Shown: positions 2,580-24,385 of the stretch, one piece after another
Layout: each line of letters opens with the position of its first letter
Numbering within the stretch: the stretch's first letter is position 1
Virus record (IMG/VR): IMGVR_UViG_3300020473_000120
Span: 1-24,409 of that record
From: a virus
DNA length: 24,409 nt
Reading direction: 5' to 3' (one strand)
The notes under the pieces: model-generated
Seen by the model: only the letters and a program-made list of their open reading frames with translations
What the model was told of the DNA's origin: nothing
The model's database searches: none
Position numbers and translations under genes: made by a program

Positions 2580-5500
2580 TACAACGTAACTCCTGTCCAC
2601 TCACGATCAGGTATAATCTTCGGTGCAATCCTTATAAGCCCTGCTCTAAACTGACCAACCCATTCCTGATTCAAATAAGGGATAACAAGGTTATTTAACA
2701 AAGGTTGTAGATGCGGTTTGCCTGCCACTTTTTCCTCAATTCGTCTTAAAAAGAATGCTTTCACAAAACTCCTATAGTCTTCAACATTTGGTCTTTTATT
2801 AATAACTTCCAATTCGTAGTTTAATCTAACAATGTCCATCATTACATCTAAAATCTCATTCTTATAAGGTGAATCAGGTATCATTTCAGGGTTTCTAACA
2901 ATCTTTCTAAACTCTTGGAACGTAGCTTCACGCCTTATAGATGAACGTCCCTTCTGAGTTTCAACAAAGAACACAGGATGTCTGTCCATGAAACCTTTAT
3001 CCCAAATATTGAACCTTTCAGTAAGTTCCTTAGCCGCTTTCATTTGATTCTGTGATTGTAAAACTGCAACAGCATAAGCATTGCGTTGTTTACGGTCATA
3101 ATATTCTGAAGCCGCGCCATTAAAATAGAAATCTTTAACGTATTCTTCTTTGCTTTTAAGTTCTCTTAAACCTTTAGCTATCTGACGTTGCTTCCAACCC
3201 CAAGCCATGTCTTCGTTGTATTCCAAACCAACTTCGTAAGGAACTAAGAAGCTGGTTGAATGAGGGAAATTCATAGCCCATTCACCGTTTTCTGTTAACC
3301 ATTTATCAACAGCCTTACTTTGTTGTGTGTAACCAACACCTGTTTTTTTGCTGGTACCAGTCTGGAAGAGAGACATCTTTGTTTGAGTTTCCCAAGAGTC
3401 TTTATCAAAATCTTCATCATACTTATGGTTGTCATAGAACATCAGCAAAGCTTCATCATGTGTCCATCCTTGCTGAATGTACCAATGCAACTCAGAGTTC
3501 CAATCCCAAGCATCACCGAAACGTAAATCTTTGTTTGTTCCTTTACCTGTACCTAAGAACCATGTAGTGAAATTCATGCCCATTATCTGTTGCGCTTCAT
3601 GGTCTAACTGTTCCATGAACTCTTCATTGAACAAATCAGGGTCTTCTTTTCTGGATATCTGATCTTGTGTAGGCATACGCCCTGTTGCTTGACGAAGTTT
3701 AACTGCTTGTATTTGTGCAGAAGCGAACTGTTCTCCCCTGTTCCAATGCTGTTGTGTCATAATTAATCCCTGAGATATTGGATAAGGGAAGAAAGCATCA
3801 AGGAAATCATGCAGTTTTGAATTACCAGCATCTTCAGCATCTCTATTGTCTGCTACATAAGCAAACCGTTCTTGCATGAAAGGACTTATATCTTCAAAAA
3901 TTGTAGGATCAGACACAGCTAACCGTGTCAATGGGTAAGAAATAAACGGTCCGACTTGTGGCCTGCCAACAGTTTCTAAATCGTATCCTGGCATAAGTCT
4001 GTCAAGTCTGAACATTTGGTCAACTGTAGGTATGCTTGCTACACCTGCAAGATATCCACCTATAACTGGTATTTCATGTAAAGCATCCATTAAAACTTGA
4101 CTTGACGGCAACGTAGCAGGAATAATCAAGTACCTTCTCCCATTCTGATCTTCTCTAACAAGCCCTGCTTTTTCACCGCCACGAATAGTTAACTGAAGAT
4201 TACGTAACATCAAAGGATTTTGTGTCAAGCCTCTAACCCAACGTCGTAAATACAAATCTTCAGCAAACCAGAATGGGATTAATGATCCCATCATTTCTTG
4301 GAATTGTGACCGTATACGATGATCGTCAATGAATGAAGCTGTAACTGAACCTGCTTTTTCCATAGCATGATTGACACGGTTCTGATGTGCGTTGAATCTA
4401 CGGTTAGAGTATTTAGTTAATTCTCTAATAGCTCCTGCTTTATTATTACTCTTTTCTATAAGAGCTTTCATAAAATCAAGATCAGAGTTTCTTGCTATAA
4501 GTTCTGCAACTTGAGCGTGATCGCCTTGAGACATAGCATAAGCAACTCTTGACAATGCATCATTGGGATCTAACGCTTGGTTAGACCATACGTGCTTAAT
4601 GAAATCTTCCAACTGAGGAATAATATCTGCTTCATCTACAGTGGAGAATAATCCAAGCTTGTTTAAAATAGGAGATTCTTTCGCGGCGTTAATCATGTAT
4701 GTGCCTTCAGTTTTCTCATACAATCTCCACGCTTCAGCAAAGTAATGAGTGAACATTGGTTCACGTACCATAGCTTCCATAGCAGGATGAATCACACCAT
4801 CGAACCATGCGGTAAGAACTTTATTCCAAAGGTAATCAAACTTTTGTTGCCCTTTAAATTCGTGCGCGCCTACTCCTATTTCTGCATAAATACTTTGCGG
4901 TAGATCAGAACGTTTCCCATTAGCCATTAAGCGAGAAGGAATAACCTCGTCATCTAAAAGTTCAAATAAGATTTCATGCATAGCAGTTTCAGATGTTTGA
5001 GATAAAGTTATTTTCTTTAACCCTTCCAACTGGACTCGTGCCATATCTTCAACCATTGCATCAGTGTCGTTTAACACTGTGTAAAATTCGTCAGCTATTT
5101 CCCAATCGTCAGGGTTGAAATCTTTGTTTGTGTAATTTGCTTGAGATGTGTAATATTCCGTTTTCCCAGTCGTAGGATCTTTACGCTTATATGTTCTCTT
5201 TAAAATAACTTGAGGAACAGAATCTTGTATCTGTACCACACCTCCGGGTTGAGCAAGAACGTCTTGTGCTACAGCGAACACTGATTGGTTTTCAAAACCA
5301 CCGACATCTTCAGGAGAGATTATGCTTCCGTCATCTCCAACAGTGTAAAAAATTCTTGAACCATTTGGTTCTATACCAGCTACTTCTGAAACAACTGTTC
5401 CATTCTGATTCACACGAGGCGTTGTACCATACTGATTAGTTAACCGAGCTTCAGTAAGACCCGGCTTAGCAAAGAAAGCATCCGAACTAATATCCCTTAC

Positions 5501-20458: not shown

Positions 20459-21471
20459 TACTTCAGCTTACCGATAAGTGTCCAAGCATCAGTGGCAGTT
20501 TTAATCAAACATGCCGAAGCGTATTGACCGTCGATCTCTTTGTTGGAATCAACAGACGTTATCGTCACCCCGGAGCCTTGAGCCAACGTGCAGTTAGCTG
20601 AACCAATGTTCTGAACAATGATCTGAGTACCCACATCAAAAGCAACCGACGAGTTCGGAGGAACCGTAAAAGTTTGCGCTGAACCGTTAGAAGAAGTAAC
20701 AAGCTTACCAGCGTCTGCGGCCACGAAAGTGTAGGTGGTTCCAGTCTGGGCGTTTATCGCTATGGGAGCTACTACGCTTCCACCAGTTATAGCGCCTGTC
20801 ACAGCAAGATCATCAGCGACGGTAACATTTCCGTCAGCGATATCTAACGCTGTCGCAGAATTAGTACCTGTTATCGTGAGTTTCTCCTCAGAAGCATCCC
20901 ACACCATCGAATCGCCAGCAGTGTCAGAGTAGAAAGTAACATCCCCACCCGTACCGTCACTACCTACAGTCAAACCTGTTAAAGCCCCCAAAGAAGTAAT
21001 AGCTGTTTGCGCCGCGCCTGTGACAGTAGCCGCAGTACCAGAAGCATTCCCGGTCACGTTACCTGTCAAAGCACCAGCAAAAGCAGTAGCAGTCAAAGTA
21101 CCACTACTCGCATCGTACGTGGCACCACCATCAGTTTTCGGAGCGAGATCGCCAGTAGCGGACTCGAACAAAGCGACACTACAAGACGAATCCGTAGTAT
21201 CCGCAACAGTGATAACAGTAGGCGTTGCCGCCGCAGGAATAGCCTCCCACGCTGTACTACCATCAGCCTGCCTAGTCATAACATGACCGTCAGAAGCGTC
21301 TGCCGCCGCAGAAGCCCCAATACCCAGCTTTGTTTCTAACTGAATTAAAGCACCAGAGTGATTCGTGTGAACCACATCATGTTCCAAACCTGAAGTGTTT
21401 AAATCATCAGAAGCAGAAGGCGACGGTTGTTGCGTCGCCGTGTCAAGCGAGGTCGGATAATTTGTAGCCAT
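20458..21471 (-). CDS. Tail fibre protein, copy 1, 337 aa
   Basis: Same anchor as the 280-aa fibre (NYPTSLDTATQQP, then GLEHDVVHTNHSGALIQLE), the same shaft motif (LTGNVTGNASGTAATVTGAA) and the same C-terminal module (TGTTYTFVAADAGKLVT, VPPNSSVAFDVGT). It has an extra block of about 55 residues after the shaft (VGSDGTGGDVTFYSDTAGD, then MVWDASEEKLTITG), a widespread phage fibre segment (G-x-D-V-x-FYSD-x-x-G-D-x-M-x-WD). TAATG overlaps join it to both neighbours. Shared protein sequence with strongly different codons suggests the two copies diverged long ago or came from different phages. Confidence 0.9.
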   Translation of the reverse strand: MATNYPTSLDTATQQPSPSASDDLNTSGLEHDVVHTNHSGALIQLETKLGIGASAAADASDGHVMTRQADGSTAWEAIPAAATPTVITVADTTDSSCSVALFESATGDLAPKTDGGATYDASSGTLTATAFAGALTGNVTGNASGTAATVTGAAQTAITSLGALTGLTVGSDGTGGDVTFYSDTAGDSMVWDASEEKLTITGTNSATALDIADGNVTVADDLAVTGAITGGSVVAPIAINAQTGTTYTFVAADAGKLVTSSNGSAQTFTVPPNSSVAFDVGTQIIVQNIGSANCTLAQGSGVTITSVDSNKEIDGQYASACLIKTATDAWTLIGKLK

Positions 21472-21857
21472 TAAGCAAGGGTAACAGTTAGCTGACCTGC
21501 CGCGAGGGAAATCGTGTCACCAGAAGCCACAGCCTTAGAAGAAGACACAGCACCATGATACAAAAGATTCCCCGAAGAAGAAGCATCCCAAATACCTATA
21601 TGCGTAACAGTACACGCAGGCATATCAGTAAACTCCTCCGCAGTTGAATTAGTCACCGCACCACCTGTACCAGCGGCGGCATTAAAATCAATAGTCTGCC
21701 TAGCGTAAGACCCACCAGAACACTCCGCACCCGAACCAGCATCAGTCGGATCGGCAGTATGCAAAGCAAGATACGCTTGCGAAGGATGCGTAAAAGCGGC
21801 AGTCCCTAAAGTATGGTCAAGAAGCTTACGCTCCAAATAATCTGACATCGCGGCCAT
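21471..21857 (-). CDS. First gene of the structural operon: small virion/appendage protein, 128 aa
   Basis: The ATG at 21857 is preceded by ATAGGAG with 6 bases spacing, so the start is well supported. The protein has YLALHTADPTD near residue 28, CSGGSYARQTIDF near residue 47, THIGIWDASSSGNLLYHG near residue 86 and an SLAAGQLTVTLA end. This layout (LHTADPT, G-YARQ, G-I-WDA-x-SGN-LL) is one I recognise from small structural proteins near fibres and minor tail genes in many phages; no biochemical role is established as far as I know. It starts the leftward transcription unit and overlaps the fibre gene in TAATG. Confidence 0.83.
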   Translation of the reverse strand: MAAMSDYLERKLLDHTLGTAAFTHPSQAYLALHTADPTDAGSGAECSGGSYARQTIDFNAAAGTGGAVTNSTAEEFTDMPACTVTHIGIWDASSSGNLLYHGAVSSSKAVASGDTISLAAGQLTVTLA

Positions 21858-21863
21858 AAAAAA

Positions 21864-21870
21864 CTCCTAT
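21864..21870 (-). promoter_or_regulatory. Ribosome-binding site of the structural operon
   Basis: ATAGGAG on the minus strand, six T bases before the ATG at 21857. The same ATAGGAG occurs before the tail-assembly chaperone gene, and TAGGAG before the second fibre gene, so this is the strong Shine-Dalgarno form in this genome. Confidence 0.8.
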
Positions 21871-21954
21871 AAAGGTTTGAACATGTTCCAACCCATGATA
21901 TAAATATATAGCCCCTCCGTCCATACTACAGAGGAATAAATAAAAACGAAGTAT

Positions 21955-21999
21955 GCGGACCCTTATCAGGTTCAGTTCGCCCGTCAGAAGGGCATCCGC
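21955..21999. other. Nested stem-loop in operon leader region
   Basis: GCGGA at 21955-21959 pairs with TCCGC at 21995-21999, enclosing GCCC (21979-21982) paired with GGGC (21990-21993) around a 7-base loop. It lies about 100 bases upstream of the first gene of the leftward operon and would be in its leader if transcription starts further upstream. Short stems, so only moderate support. Confidence 0.35.
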
Positions 22000-22198
22000 C
22001 CCCTGCAATCAAGTCAAGCAGAGGCAGAGTAAAACGTGATCGCTCGAACTCGAAGTGGAGCCGTACTTAAAACGGTCGGAAGGCACACCCAGGGGAAACA
22101 AGGCTCAAAAACAACCAACGGTGGTGTCCACGAAAAGAACAACACCTCAGACATTTGTCTATATCTAGGGGGTCTGGTACATGGGGGGGATGTCGGGG

Positions 22199-22229
22199 TA
22201 AGAAAGGTAGCGTAGCGTACCCTTTCTTA
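22199..22229. repeat. Inverted repeat, 9-bp perfect stem
   Basis: TAAGAAAGG and CCTTTCTTA enclose a 13-base centre made of a short direct repeat (TAGCG TAGCG). It opens the dense hairpin cluster. No T-run follows on either strand, so it is not an evident terminator. Confidence 0.6.
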
Positions 22230-22253
22230 GGGCGACGCTCTTAGAAATCGCGT

Positions 22254-22287
22254 CGATATCTGAAGAGGCTATGCCTCGATGATATCG
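22254..22287. repeat. Nested inverted repeat (CGATATC outer, GAGGC inner)
   Basis: CGATATC pairs with GATATCG (7 bp). Inside, GAGGC pairs with GCCTC around TAT, separated by 4 and 3 unpaired bases. It abuts a 6-bp hairpin at 22233-22255 (CGACGC/GCGTCG). Confidence 0.6.
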
Positions 22288-22307
22288 GCTCACGGGTTTT
22301 AAAGAGA

Positions 22308-22350
22308 GGCGGATGCTAAAATGCGAAGCCTTTAGGCTTCAGCATCCGCC
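22308..22350. repeat. Bulged hairpin A: 10-bp outer stem, 7-base 5' bulge, 6-bp inner stem
   Basis: GGCGGATGCT pairs perfectly with AGCATCCGCC. The inner stem GAAGCC/GGCTTC closes a TTTA loop. The inner and outer stems are flush on the 3' side, and seven bases (AAAATGC) are unpaired only on the 5' side. The next hairpin, 10 bases on, has the same plan. Confidence 0.7.
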
Positions 22351-22360
22351 GAACGCATGA

Positions 22361-22398
22361 GCGCCGAGTATAATAGGAGCCGAAGGCTCACTCGGCGC
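22361..22398. repeat. Bulged hairpin B: 9-bp outer stem, 7-base 5' bulge, 5-bp inner stem
   Basis: GCGCCGAGT pairs perfectly with ACTCGGCGC. The inner stem GAGCC/GGCTC closes a GAA loop. A seven-base bulge (ATAATAG) lies only on the 5' side, as in hairpin A. The last stem base and the bulge together spell TATAAT, a perfect -10 hexamer, but I see no matching -35. Confidence 0.7.
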
Positions 22399-22507
22399 GA
22401 ATAAATCGCACACAGAGCGACGACAGGTCGCTAGAGGTGCATAAGTGCAGGTCAGAGTGTCTGTGGGGTTGTGTGTGGACAGCGCCTGTCGGGGCTGTGT
22501 GTGCGTA

Positions 22508-22538
22508 GAAAAAAGGGCGCCGGTAGGCGCACCGTTTT
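22508..22538. terminator. Possible weak terminator hairpin
   Basis: GCGCC (22517-22521) pairs with GGCGC (22526-22530) around GGTA. On the minus strand the stem is followed by C and six T; on the plus strand an alternative CGGT/ACCG stem is followed by four T. Short stems; direction not clear. Confidence 0.3.
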
Positions 22539-22704
22539 GGGTGGGGTCGAGGGGTCGCCGTAGGCGAGGGCTCGCAGGAAATGAGGCGAGCTTCGCTCGG
22601 CATTAATCAAAGGGGTGGGGCTTCGGGCGATTACGGCGAGACCGTTGGCTTTGCCAGCTGGTCGCCGTTATCGGGGGAAGGATTTTTGTGTGGTGTCGGC
22701 GAAT

Positions 22705-22799
22705 AAAAGAAGCTCTATTTCTGCGGTTTTCGCTTGCGAAAAAGTCCAAGTGAATGTTCTCTTTCATTCACCTGGACTAGTAGAAATGGCGCTTCTTTT
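22705..22799 (+). ncRNA. Predicted three-way-junction RNA element, 95 nt
   Basis: Seen directly: 22705-22724 pairs with 22780-22799 (20 positions, one T/C mismatch at 22714/22790, two G-T wobbles); 22727-22732 TTTTCG pairs with CGAAAA at 22737-22742 around a CTTG tetraloop; 22744-22756 pairs with 22765-22777 (13 positions, one A/C mismatch) around an 8-base loop. The linkers in the junction are GG, A and TA. Two of the imperfect pairs are G-U only in the plus-strand RNA and one only in the minus-strand RNA, so plus is mildly favoured. It ends 11 bases before an extended -10 box, so as RNA it would come from an upstream promoter. Otherwise it acts as a DNA cruciform or operator at that promoter. 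I know no family that matches. Confidence 0.55.
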
Positions 22800-22809
22800 G
22801 TGGAAACAC

Positions 22810-22818
22810 TGCTATAAT
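22810..22818 (+). promoter_or_regulatory. Extended -10 promoter for the rightward 287-aa gene
   Basis: TGCTATAAT is a perfect extended -10 element (TGn plus TATAAT). Transcription would start near 22825, giving a leader of about 44 bases. No good -35 is present; the expected position overlaps the 3' arm of the three-way-junction element. It looks like a promoter for the host's main sigma factor, consistent with early expression. Confidence 0.65.
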
Positions 22819-22868
22819 TTAAGGGTAGTCACAAAGGCTACGAAATATAAATAAATGAAAAGGCAATA

Positions 22869-23732
22869 ATGACAAACAAGAGTTCGAGCGGAACTAAAAC
22901 GCAAACCAAAAAATTGATTTCACCTGAAGATCAATTTGCTAGAGATCCAAACGCTAACCCTGAAAAGGCAAGCACTGGGCTCGATCCTATTACAGATGCA
23001 AAGCTAGAAATCCTTTCTACCGTTGCATCTGCTCCGGTGTTTTTTACTCCGGCGATAGCAATACCCGAAGCAATTCAAAACCTTTTAACTTGGGAAGATT
23101 CCAACTTGGAAAACGAATTGTATAGCCGAAATTTTAAGAACGTAATTTTGTCTAGAATTTCAGGCACTCCAACCAAGTTGGAAACTTATCAGGAAGCCAA
23201 CAAAAAAACCGGAGAACTAAAGGACAAGACACGAGTAATAAGTAACGTGACAATGCCTCATTCTTCGGGTGAGATTGTTGGACTTGAGGAAAACGGCAAA
23301 CAGAAAAGGGAACTCGCCTTTGCTGGTGGTCGTCTAATTCAAGTTAGCCTCACCGAACTAGGTGAAGCTTGCCCTTATTCAAAAATGACAGAAGGAACGG
23401 ACACGGTAGAAATGGTGGTGAATTTCTTCGAACTTCACCACGACCTGCGTCTATGGTGTGACGTTCACGAAGTCGGGCAACCAGTCCGAGAGGGAGTAGA
23501 AATAAATCTACGACCAGCACAAGGCAAAGAGGAAAAAGTTTTTGCCTGTGGTGTTGAGATTCTCCCACCTGATGAAAAGACGGGCGGAATGCGTACCCGT
23601 GCTTGGTGGGTTGCTCATGTTCCCGATTTCTCACATGAGAAACATGTGGAACAGGTCAACTTGAAGCTAGGCGCAAAACGTGCGACAGATAACGCACGCC
23701 AGCCGATGCCAAGCGAGCCTGAAAACTGGTAA
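22869..23732 (+). CDS. Rightward single gene of unknown function, 287 aa
   Basis: I do not recognise a family. The ATG follows AAAAGG with 5 bases spacing, the extended -10 promoter lies 50 bases upstream, and a strong terminator starts 9 bases after the stop, so it is a monocistronic unit opposite to the structural operon. The first 20 residues are Ser/Thr/Lys-rich and probably disordered. Residues 50-75 contain a hydrophobic, Pro-rich stretch (VFFTPAIAIPEAIQ). Residues 120-255 look beta-rich, with FELHHDLRLWCDVHEVG near 187-203, a Cys at 168 (GEACPY) and a Cys at 227 (FACGVEILPP), so a metal site is conceivable but unproven. The C-terminus is hydrophilic and ends PSEPENW. Probably an early or middle, abundantly made protein such as a DNA-binding or host-takeover factor; this is a guess from its layout only. 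Confidence 0.85.
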   Translation: MTNKSSSGTKTQTKKLISPEDQFARDPNANPEKASTGLDPITDAKLEILSTVASAPVFFTPAIAIPEAIQNLLTWEDSNLENELYSRNFKNVILSRISGTPTKLETYQEANKKTGELKDKTRVISNVTMPHSSGEIVGLEENGKQKRELAFAGGRLIQVSLTELGEACPYSKMTEGTDTVEMVVNFFELHHDLRLWCDVHEVGQPVREGVEINLRPAQGKEEKVFACGVEILPPDEKTGGMRTRAWWVAHVPDFSHEKHVEQVNLKLGAKRATDNARQPMPSEPENW

Positions 23733-23740
23733 AAAATTTA

Positions 23741-23774
23741 AGACGGGGGGCTTCGGCTCCCCGTCTTTTTTTTT
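23741..23774 (+). terminator. Rho-independent terminator of the 287-aa gene
   Basis: An 11-bp stem (23741-23751 with 23756-23766, one G-T wobble) closes a C(TTCG)G tetraloop and runs into nine T bases. A-rich sequence before the stem (six A, three T) gives it a weaker terminator form on the minus strand too. Canonical and strong. Confidence 0.95.
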
Positions 23775-23936
23775 GCGCCATAATTCGCAAGCAAATTACG
23801 CCGCTACGAAAAAAAACCGCCAAACCTCTCCGTTCCTGCCATCTCTTTAAAAACGGAGCCGTCGGTTGCTTTGCCGGTGACGGCGAACTGCTGAACAACT
23901 TTAAATAACTGACCAGCTATTAACATTCAAGACCAG

Positions 23937-24139: not shown

Positions 24140-24226
24140 GTTCAAGGTTATGAGTCTATAAGATTGGGATTCAAGGTTATGATTCTATAGTAGTGGGATT
24201 CAAGATTATGAGTCTATAGGAGTGGG
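24140..24226 (+). repeat. Three tandem 29-bp direct repeats (possible promoters or iterons)
   Basis: Units start at 24140, 24169 and 24198, exactly 29 bp apart with no spacer. All contain TTCAAG, then TTATGA, TCTATA and a TGGG end. The core of unit 3, GAGTCTATAGGAGTGGG, recalls T7-type phage polymerase promoters (CTATAGGGAG around the start site), and AGGAG could also act as a ribosome site for the ATG at 24227. Unit 1 differs most in the last third (TATAAGATTGGG). The precise head-to-tail order also fits iterons. Confidence 0.75.
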
Positions 24227-24385
24227 ATGTCACGAGTTGATTTTAAATATAAGGATGATAAATACACATATCTTTCAGGCTTTCATGGTAAAAGCTGGGG
24301 TATTTCTTTAACAGATTTTATACTCGGTTGCGTTTCACGCACCGAGCGTCAAGGTTCCGATTCTATAGGAGTGGCAGGTAGATAA
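24227..24385 (+). CDS. Possible small protein, 52 aa
   Basis: An ATG directly after the third 29-bp repeat, with AGGAG four bases upstream, opens a 52-codon frame ending in TAA at 24385. The product starts MSRVDFKYKDDKYTYLSGFH and continues with a KSWGISLTDFILGCVSRTER segment, a plausible mixed polar and aromatic protein. The last 13 codons are made of the fourth repeat copy, which argues that the end may be accidental. Codon choice resembles the neighbouring genes. No family recognised. Confidence 0.4.
   Translation: MSRVDFKYKDDKYTYLSGFHGKSWGISLTDFILGCVSRTERQGSDSIGVAGR
24347..24375 (+). repeat. Fourth, displaced copy of the 29-bp repeat
   Basis: Matches the tandem units over TCAAGGTT and GATTCTATAGGAGTGG, with differences at the first two, two middle and last bases. 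It begins 149 bp after the start of unit 3. It has lost the ATG found in the other three units but keeps the TCTATAGGAGTGG core, so this core is likely the functional part. It could drive or serve a gene just right of the window. Confidence 0.65.

Follow-up and report, generated by a model that had tools for sequence, protein, structure and literature searches.

A three-way junction ahead of a promoter

The DNA analysed here (the window, 24,409 nt) is a 24-kb phage fragment in which the late genes, encoding a portal, a terminase, a 2,658-aa protein without family and a head protein, run leftward, and in which a gene-free gap of ~1 kb (21858-22868) separates these from the divergent early genes. 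Towards the right end of this gap, a first-pass annotation had described a 95-nt element that folds into a three-way junction just before a promoter, and had proposed it to be a phage small RNA, a leader-type regulator or a DNA cruciform. This raises the question of whether the fold is genuine and, if so, what such an element does between two divergent gene blocks.

The three-armed fold at 22705-22799 is real. The closing stem described earlier (20 positions with one mismatch) is returned by both the MFE and the centroid structure as 9 bp, a U·C mismatch and 10 bp, and pairs an A tract with a U tract (AAAAGAAGC/GCUUCUUUU); the 6-bp hairpin with its CTTG loop is present in the + strand fold as a CUUG loop, and the second hairpin, given as 13 positions, folds over 13-14 positions with one A·C mismatch and an 8-nt loop. 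The linkers had been counted correctly as 2, 1 and 2 bases, with an extra A-U pair in the MFE making them 2, 0 and 1. Complementarity had been put at about 80 of the 95 bases and judged unlikely by chance: 76 are paired, and the + strand RNA fold reaches -43.5 kcal/mol (z -8.0), a value that was equalled in none of 200 dinucleotide shuffles, while the lowest of 2,000 further shuffles was -30.2 kcal/mol. The minus strand of the same segment is less stable, at -37.5 kcal/mol. In a z-score scan of the whole stretch (974 scan windows), those covering the junction rank first on the minus and third on the + strand, and extreme z-scores cluster in 22200-22450 and at the junction, which is the last structured element in a run filling 22190-22800 that the first-pass annotation does not mention.

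The extended -10 box expected just after the element was indeed found, with 10 bases in between (Table 1), and it supplies the single occurrence of TGNTATAAT on the 81-kb contig that represents the same virus. The 287-aa protein encoded downstream has no PHROG or Pfam match. Its gene is directly followed by an intrinsic terminator at 23740-23775 (12-bp hairpin at 23740-23767 plus a T run) and hence seems to be a single-gene transcription unit. Further to the right lie noncoding, iteron-like direct repeats of 29 nt (TTCAAGRTTATGAKTCTATA...), three at 24141-24245 and a fourth at 24349-24379.

Table 1. Features of the gap and its flanks (positions in the window)
Feature	Position	Strand	Remarks
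128-aa head protein (phrog_240)	21471-21857	-	left-hand gene, divergent
Extended -10 promoter of the putative large RNA	21896-21904 (TG 21896-21897, TATAAA 21899-21904)	+	kept in diverged homologues
Conserved 5' core of the putative large noncoding RNA	21911-22182	+	nhmmer, 47 distinct viral loci and L194
P1 hairpin, first helix of H-type pseudoknot	21914-21917 with 21931-21934	+	100% of cells paired; 3 of 4 pairs changed on both sides
P2 pseudoknot helix	21922-21927 with 21950-21955	+	97.7% of cells paired; 6 of 6 pairs changed on both sides
P3 hairpin, 7-nt loop CUUAUCA	21957-21973	+	covariation
P4 hairpin GCCC/GGGC, loop GUCAGAA	21979-21993	+	changes to GUCC/GGAC
P6 hairpin CCGU/ACGG	22061-22075	+	UCGA/UCGA in L134, L145, L155
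P7 helix, GGUGUC (22123-22128) with GACAUU (22150-22155)	22123-22155	+	varying pair mostly G-U, never A-C
Lineage-specific structured part	22183-22704	+	hairpins 22192-22236, 22308-22350, 22407-22505, 22621-22680; inverted repeats, z down to -7.9
Three-way junction	22705-22799	+	fold and shuffles; unique to the virus under study; probable 3'-terminal domain of the large RNA
Extended -10 promoter of the next gene, TGCTATAAT	22810-22818	+	read directly
287-aa protein	22869-23732	+	right-hand gene

The gap opens with a conserved RNA core

A search with the head protein returned 80 related loci, in about 20 of which the first ~300 nt of the gap are roughly 70-90% identical. Two DNA patterns taken from this core added further loci, and profile searches settled at the number of distinct viral sequences given in Table 1. 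One contig with the core (L194) comes from an Actinomycetota MAG, a hint that the host is an actinobacterium; in bacterial genomes, a strict core pattern gave no match and a looser one gave 40, with this contig as the only clear homologue. Among cultured phages, the DNA of the core matched nothing beyond a 33-nt stretch at chance level, and a literature search to which subscription journals contributed little gave no description of an RNA bearing it. Numerous viral contigs stop within the core or directly behind it (including L008, L009, L011, L013, L014, L015, L090, L104 and L121), and the structured, variable tract that follows may break assemblies.

Covariation over P1 to P4 was analysed in an alignment of 29 sequences. 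The pseudoknot and the two tandem hairpins with 7-nt loops are paired in 96.4% of cells, against 15-46% in slid controls, and 12 of the 19 pairs have changed on both sides; the covariation score is 0.467, whereas shuffling lowers it to 0.115 and sliding the partners to about 0.07 or less. Coordinated changes across homologues are likewise seen in P6 and P7. For the 911-nt tract as a whole, the MFE includes a long-range closing helix that is incompatible with the covarying pseudoknot, and this fold was not used.

In order to assign a strand, several lines of evidence have to be combined. Even very diverged loci retain an extended -10 of the type TGnTAnnnT, 20-30 nt ahead of the core. The head gene is the usual left-hand neighbour, with the core immediately upstream of it, and the promoter also persists where a different gene takes this place (L134, L145, L155, L141, L164 and L165). 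P7 and P1 vary through G-U pairs (in five homologues for P7; in L016, L017 and L176 for P1) and never through A-C, although some other core helices show A-C rather than G-U changes, so that this evidence is mixed; a strand call from G-U versus A-C over all pairs of perfect helices was dropped as too noisy. Amongst perfect hairpins with 4-nt loops after the core, a GNRA or CUUG loop falls on the + strand in 8 cases and on the minus strand in 1; the junction's own CUUG loop counts among the 8, and 7 of these are variants of a single hairpin in which stem and loop change with GNRA kept. Judged by alignment folding energy alone, the minus strand would have a slight advantage. Taking the extended -10, the G-U pairs at P7 and P1, the tetraloops and the promoter direction of a second RNA group (below) together, the large RNA is likely to be encoded on the + strand, with a start site that would lie near 21911.

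This second group comprises phage RNAs of ~330 nt that lie directly after the large terminase gene (L140, L146, L147, L150, L163, L173, L175, L182, L190 and others), have a promoter TTGACA-17-TATGNT in the same direction and carry tandem P3-P4 hairpins like those of the core; the members tested have no Rfam match. Since the loci were fetched by a P4 pattern, P4 is not independent evidence of similarity, in contrast to P3 and the promoter.

A structured, lineage-specific tract follows the core

The homologues show the same layout, in which the core is followed by a structured, lineage-specific tract. Where enough flank is available, roughly 400-1,250 nt of noncoding structured sequence come after the core, the next rightward gene lies about 670-1,510 nt from the core start, and in most loci the later tract contains one very stable element. 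Of all 100-nt windows after the core, 8.6% have z<-4, compared with 2.0% in coding parts of the same loci (Mann-Whitney p=2e-5; p=2.6e-4 without the virus under study). The sequence of this tract is poorly conserved: projecting the L016 fold onto L118 gave 8 compensatory and 29 broken pairs, and the L021 fold onto L136 gave 6 and 17, so that only part of the predicted folds is conserved between close pairs. A hairpin with a bulged U, GUGCAAUC-N3-GAUUGCUACG, recurs in the noncoding tracts of L017, L087 and L130, with several copies in some of them, which would fit growth of the RNA body by module duplication. In the virus under study, no convincing + strand intrinsic terminator was found between 21911 and 22705, and a promoter scan revealed no sigma-70-like promoter just upstream of 22705.

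Compared with the core, the junction is far more restricted. Its sole other copy is on the 81-kb contig (L001), which is 99.9% identical and belongs to the same virus; across the whole gap the two differ at one base, 22691, which lies outside the junction. No diverged homologue was identified: the exact pattern of the long hairpin matched only this contig in viral_contigs, the junction was not found in the ~20 loci keeping the upstream core among the 80 compared, the 287-aa gene as an anchor for relatives matched only the virus under study, and a subtype search for close relatives of the window returned only its own virus and L101, which is the same contig as L024 and stops short of the position corresponding to the junction. 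A branched element does, however, precede the next gene in L019 and, less clearly, in L018; one idea is that the junction might be inverted relative to these three-way junctions in arm order and octaloop strand. The loop RAAGAGAA caps a hairpin in L016, in L130 and, on the minus strand, in the junction, whilst shuffled versions of the loop occur in none of the loci.

What the junction is

We consider it probable that the junction is the 3'-terminal domain of a + strand noncoding RNA of ~890-900 nt transcribed from the promoter at 21896-21904, and most likely this lineage's version of the strong element that closes the tract just before the next promoter. Transcription would proceed rightward from this extended -10, starting ~800 nt before the junction, and a single transcript would extend to about 22799. 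Read in order, such an RNA would consist of the 5' core (P1/P2 pseudoknot, P3/P4, P6 and P7), a fast-evolving structured body and a stable closing element. The junction would most likely cap and protect the 3' end, and its U-rich 3' arm (UUCUUUU) may contribute to ending the transcript just ahead of the next promoter, that of the 287-aa gene. A terminating role appears weak, given that there is only this UUCUUUU, that a canonical terminator follows the next gene and that most homologues lack a terminator here. As to the roles first proposed for the element, a cruciform is less likely than an RNA role, given the conserved + strand RNA locus around the element. Two of the three suggestions, however, fit poorly: the junction is probably not a stand-alone small RNA, there being no promoter found immediately before it, and it does not lie in the leader of the 287-aa gene, whose promoter starts after it.

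The main rival is a role at the DNA level, in which a cruciform or protein-binding hairpin controls the extended -10 located 10 bases downstream, independently of any upstream RNA. In favour of such a device, the element adjoins the promoter with the single TGNTATAAT on the 81-kb contig, overlaps the -35 region of this promoter with its 3' arm and shows near symmetry between the two strands; that it folds better as + strand RNA, has the stable CUUG loop of its short hairpin on this strand only and continues a structured run beginning in a conserved RNA, the core of which is kept in homologues without the junction, makes this explanation rather unlikely in our view. We give a similarly low probability to the junction serving solely as an intrinsic terminator of unusual form, shielding the 287-aa gene from upstream transcription. 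Its position between an upstream + transcript and a downstream + promoter would suit this function, as would the pairing of A and U tracts in the closing stem; yet the U tract is short and not continuous, at 23740-23775 this phage has a canonical terminator whose T run is longer, and at the corresponding place in most homologues a scan for simple hairpins found no intrinsic terminator. Intrinsic terminators typically consist of a G+C-rich stem with a U tract behind it. Such scans, which consider simple hairpins only, do not report the junction either, the U tract of which is paired within the closing stem.

A reversal of the whole arrangement, with the tract as the minus-strand leader of a late operon beginning with the head gene and the junction at its 5' end, would agree with the usual position of the core next to that gene and with the slightly lower alignment energies on the minus strand. 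We regard it as very improbable: five loci (L134, L145, L155, L141 and L165) have a different left-hand neighbour, the G-U, tetraloop and promoter evidence favours the + strand, and the promoter of the second RNA group points in the + direction. It is equally hard to see the junction as a recent insertion or relic without a role, for example a small inverted-repeat mobile element, despite its being unique to the virus under study, as most homologues with enough flank have a very stable element of their own late in the tract, the octaloop motif recurs in L016 and L130, and the exact pattern found no similar copy elsewhere in viral_contigs.

Comparison with known phage RNAs

The first-pass annotation knew of no RNA family with this layout, and this holds for the entire locus: Rfam 15 gave no family at E<=1 for 21700-22950, nor any on the RNA in homologues, and the models of GOLLD, ROOL and phi29-type pRNA do not match the large RNA. 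Large structured phage RNAs are few, GOLLD and ROOL being the main examples. GOLLD is a giant phage or prophage RNA with many members >800 nt, conserved in its 3' region and less so in its 5' region, whereas ROOL (659 nt in one example), also from phages or prophages, contains pseudoknots and has no known protein partner; both are often found near tRNA islands and form RNA-only homo-oligomeric cages (PMC12286853). The putative RNA described here resembles GOLLD in being phage-encoded, of similar length and highly structured with one conserved and one variable part, but its conserved part is at the 5' instead of the 3' end. With ROOL it shares pseudoknots, a phage or prophage origin and the lack of a known protein partner, but it has a different conserved core and no tRNA island, with ARAGORN detecting no tRNA genes in the window or in six loci. 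Membership in either family was ruled out by the lack of an Rfam match, the lack of nearby tRNAs and the different conserved part.

The pRNA of phi29 is a phage packaging RNA that is built on a three-way junction and works with the phi29-type packaging ATPase. The likeness lies in the presence of a three-way junction in a phage RNA; the junction at this locus, however, is not conserved in relatives of the phage, and the packaging protein is an ordinary large terminase (phrog_38 match, 1.5e-49) rather than a phi29-type ATPase.

Most likely, the locus belongs to a new large phage RNA family that is similar in kind to GOLLD and ROOL without being related to either, and that here has the junction as 3' domain. 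On balance we lean towards a widespread family of ~0.7-1.5 kb RNAs, with a conserved 5' core bearing a pseudoknot and a 3' body that is modular, specific to each lineage and closed by strong elements. This family may share its P3-P4 module with the second, shorter RNA group and may act as a structural or assembling RNA in infection; a structural role of the whole RNA would be analogous to GOLLD and ROOL. A further, unrelated family with a clear core, a promoter and ~50 sequences offers a target for marine metatranscriptomes and in vitro tests, and the locus illustrates how the variable end of a conserved RNA can pass for an isolated oddity.

Two small RNA elements were noticed on another phage contig, L026. 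A 95-nt tRNA-like domain of tmRNA without the mRNA-like tag part (GGGGGTGAATAGGTTTCGAC ... CCGGGGTTCGATTCCCCGCACCTCCA) lies at 2581-2675 on the minus strand (Rfam tmRNA, 56.8 bits), and ~320 nt upstream of it, at 2994-3064 on the same strand, is a candidate Pistol ribozyme that scores 33 bits, just under the Rfam threshold of 34.5.
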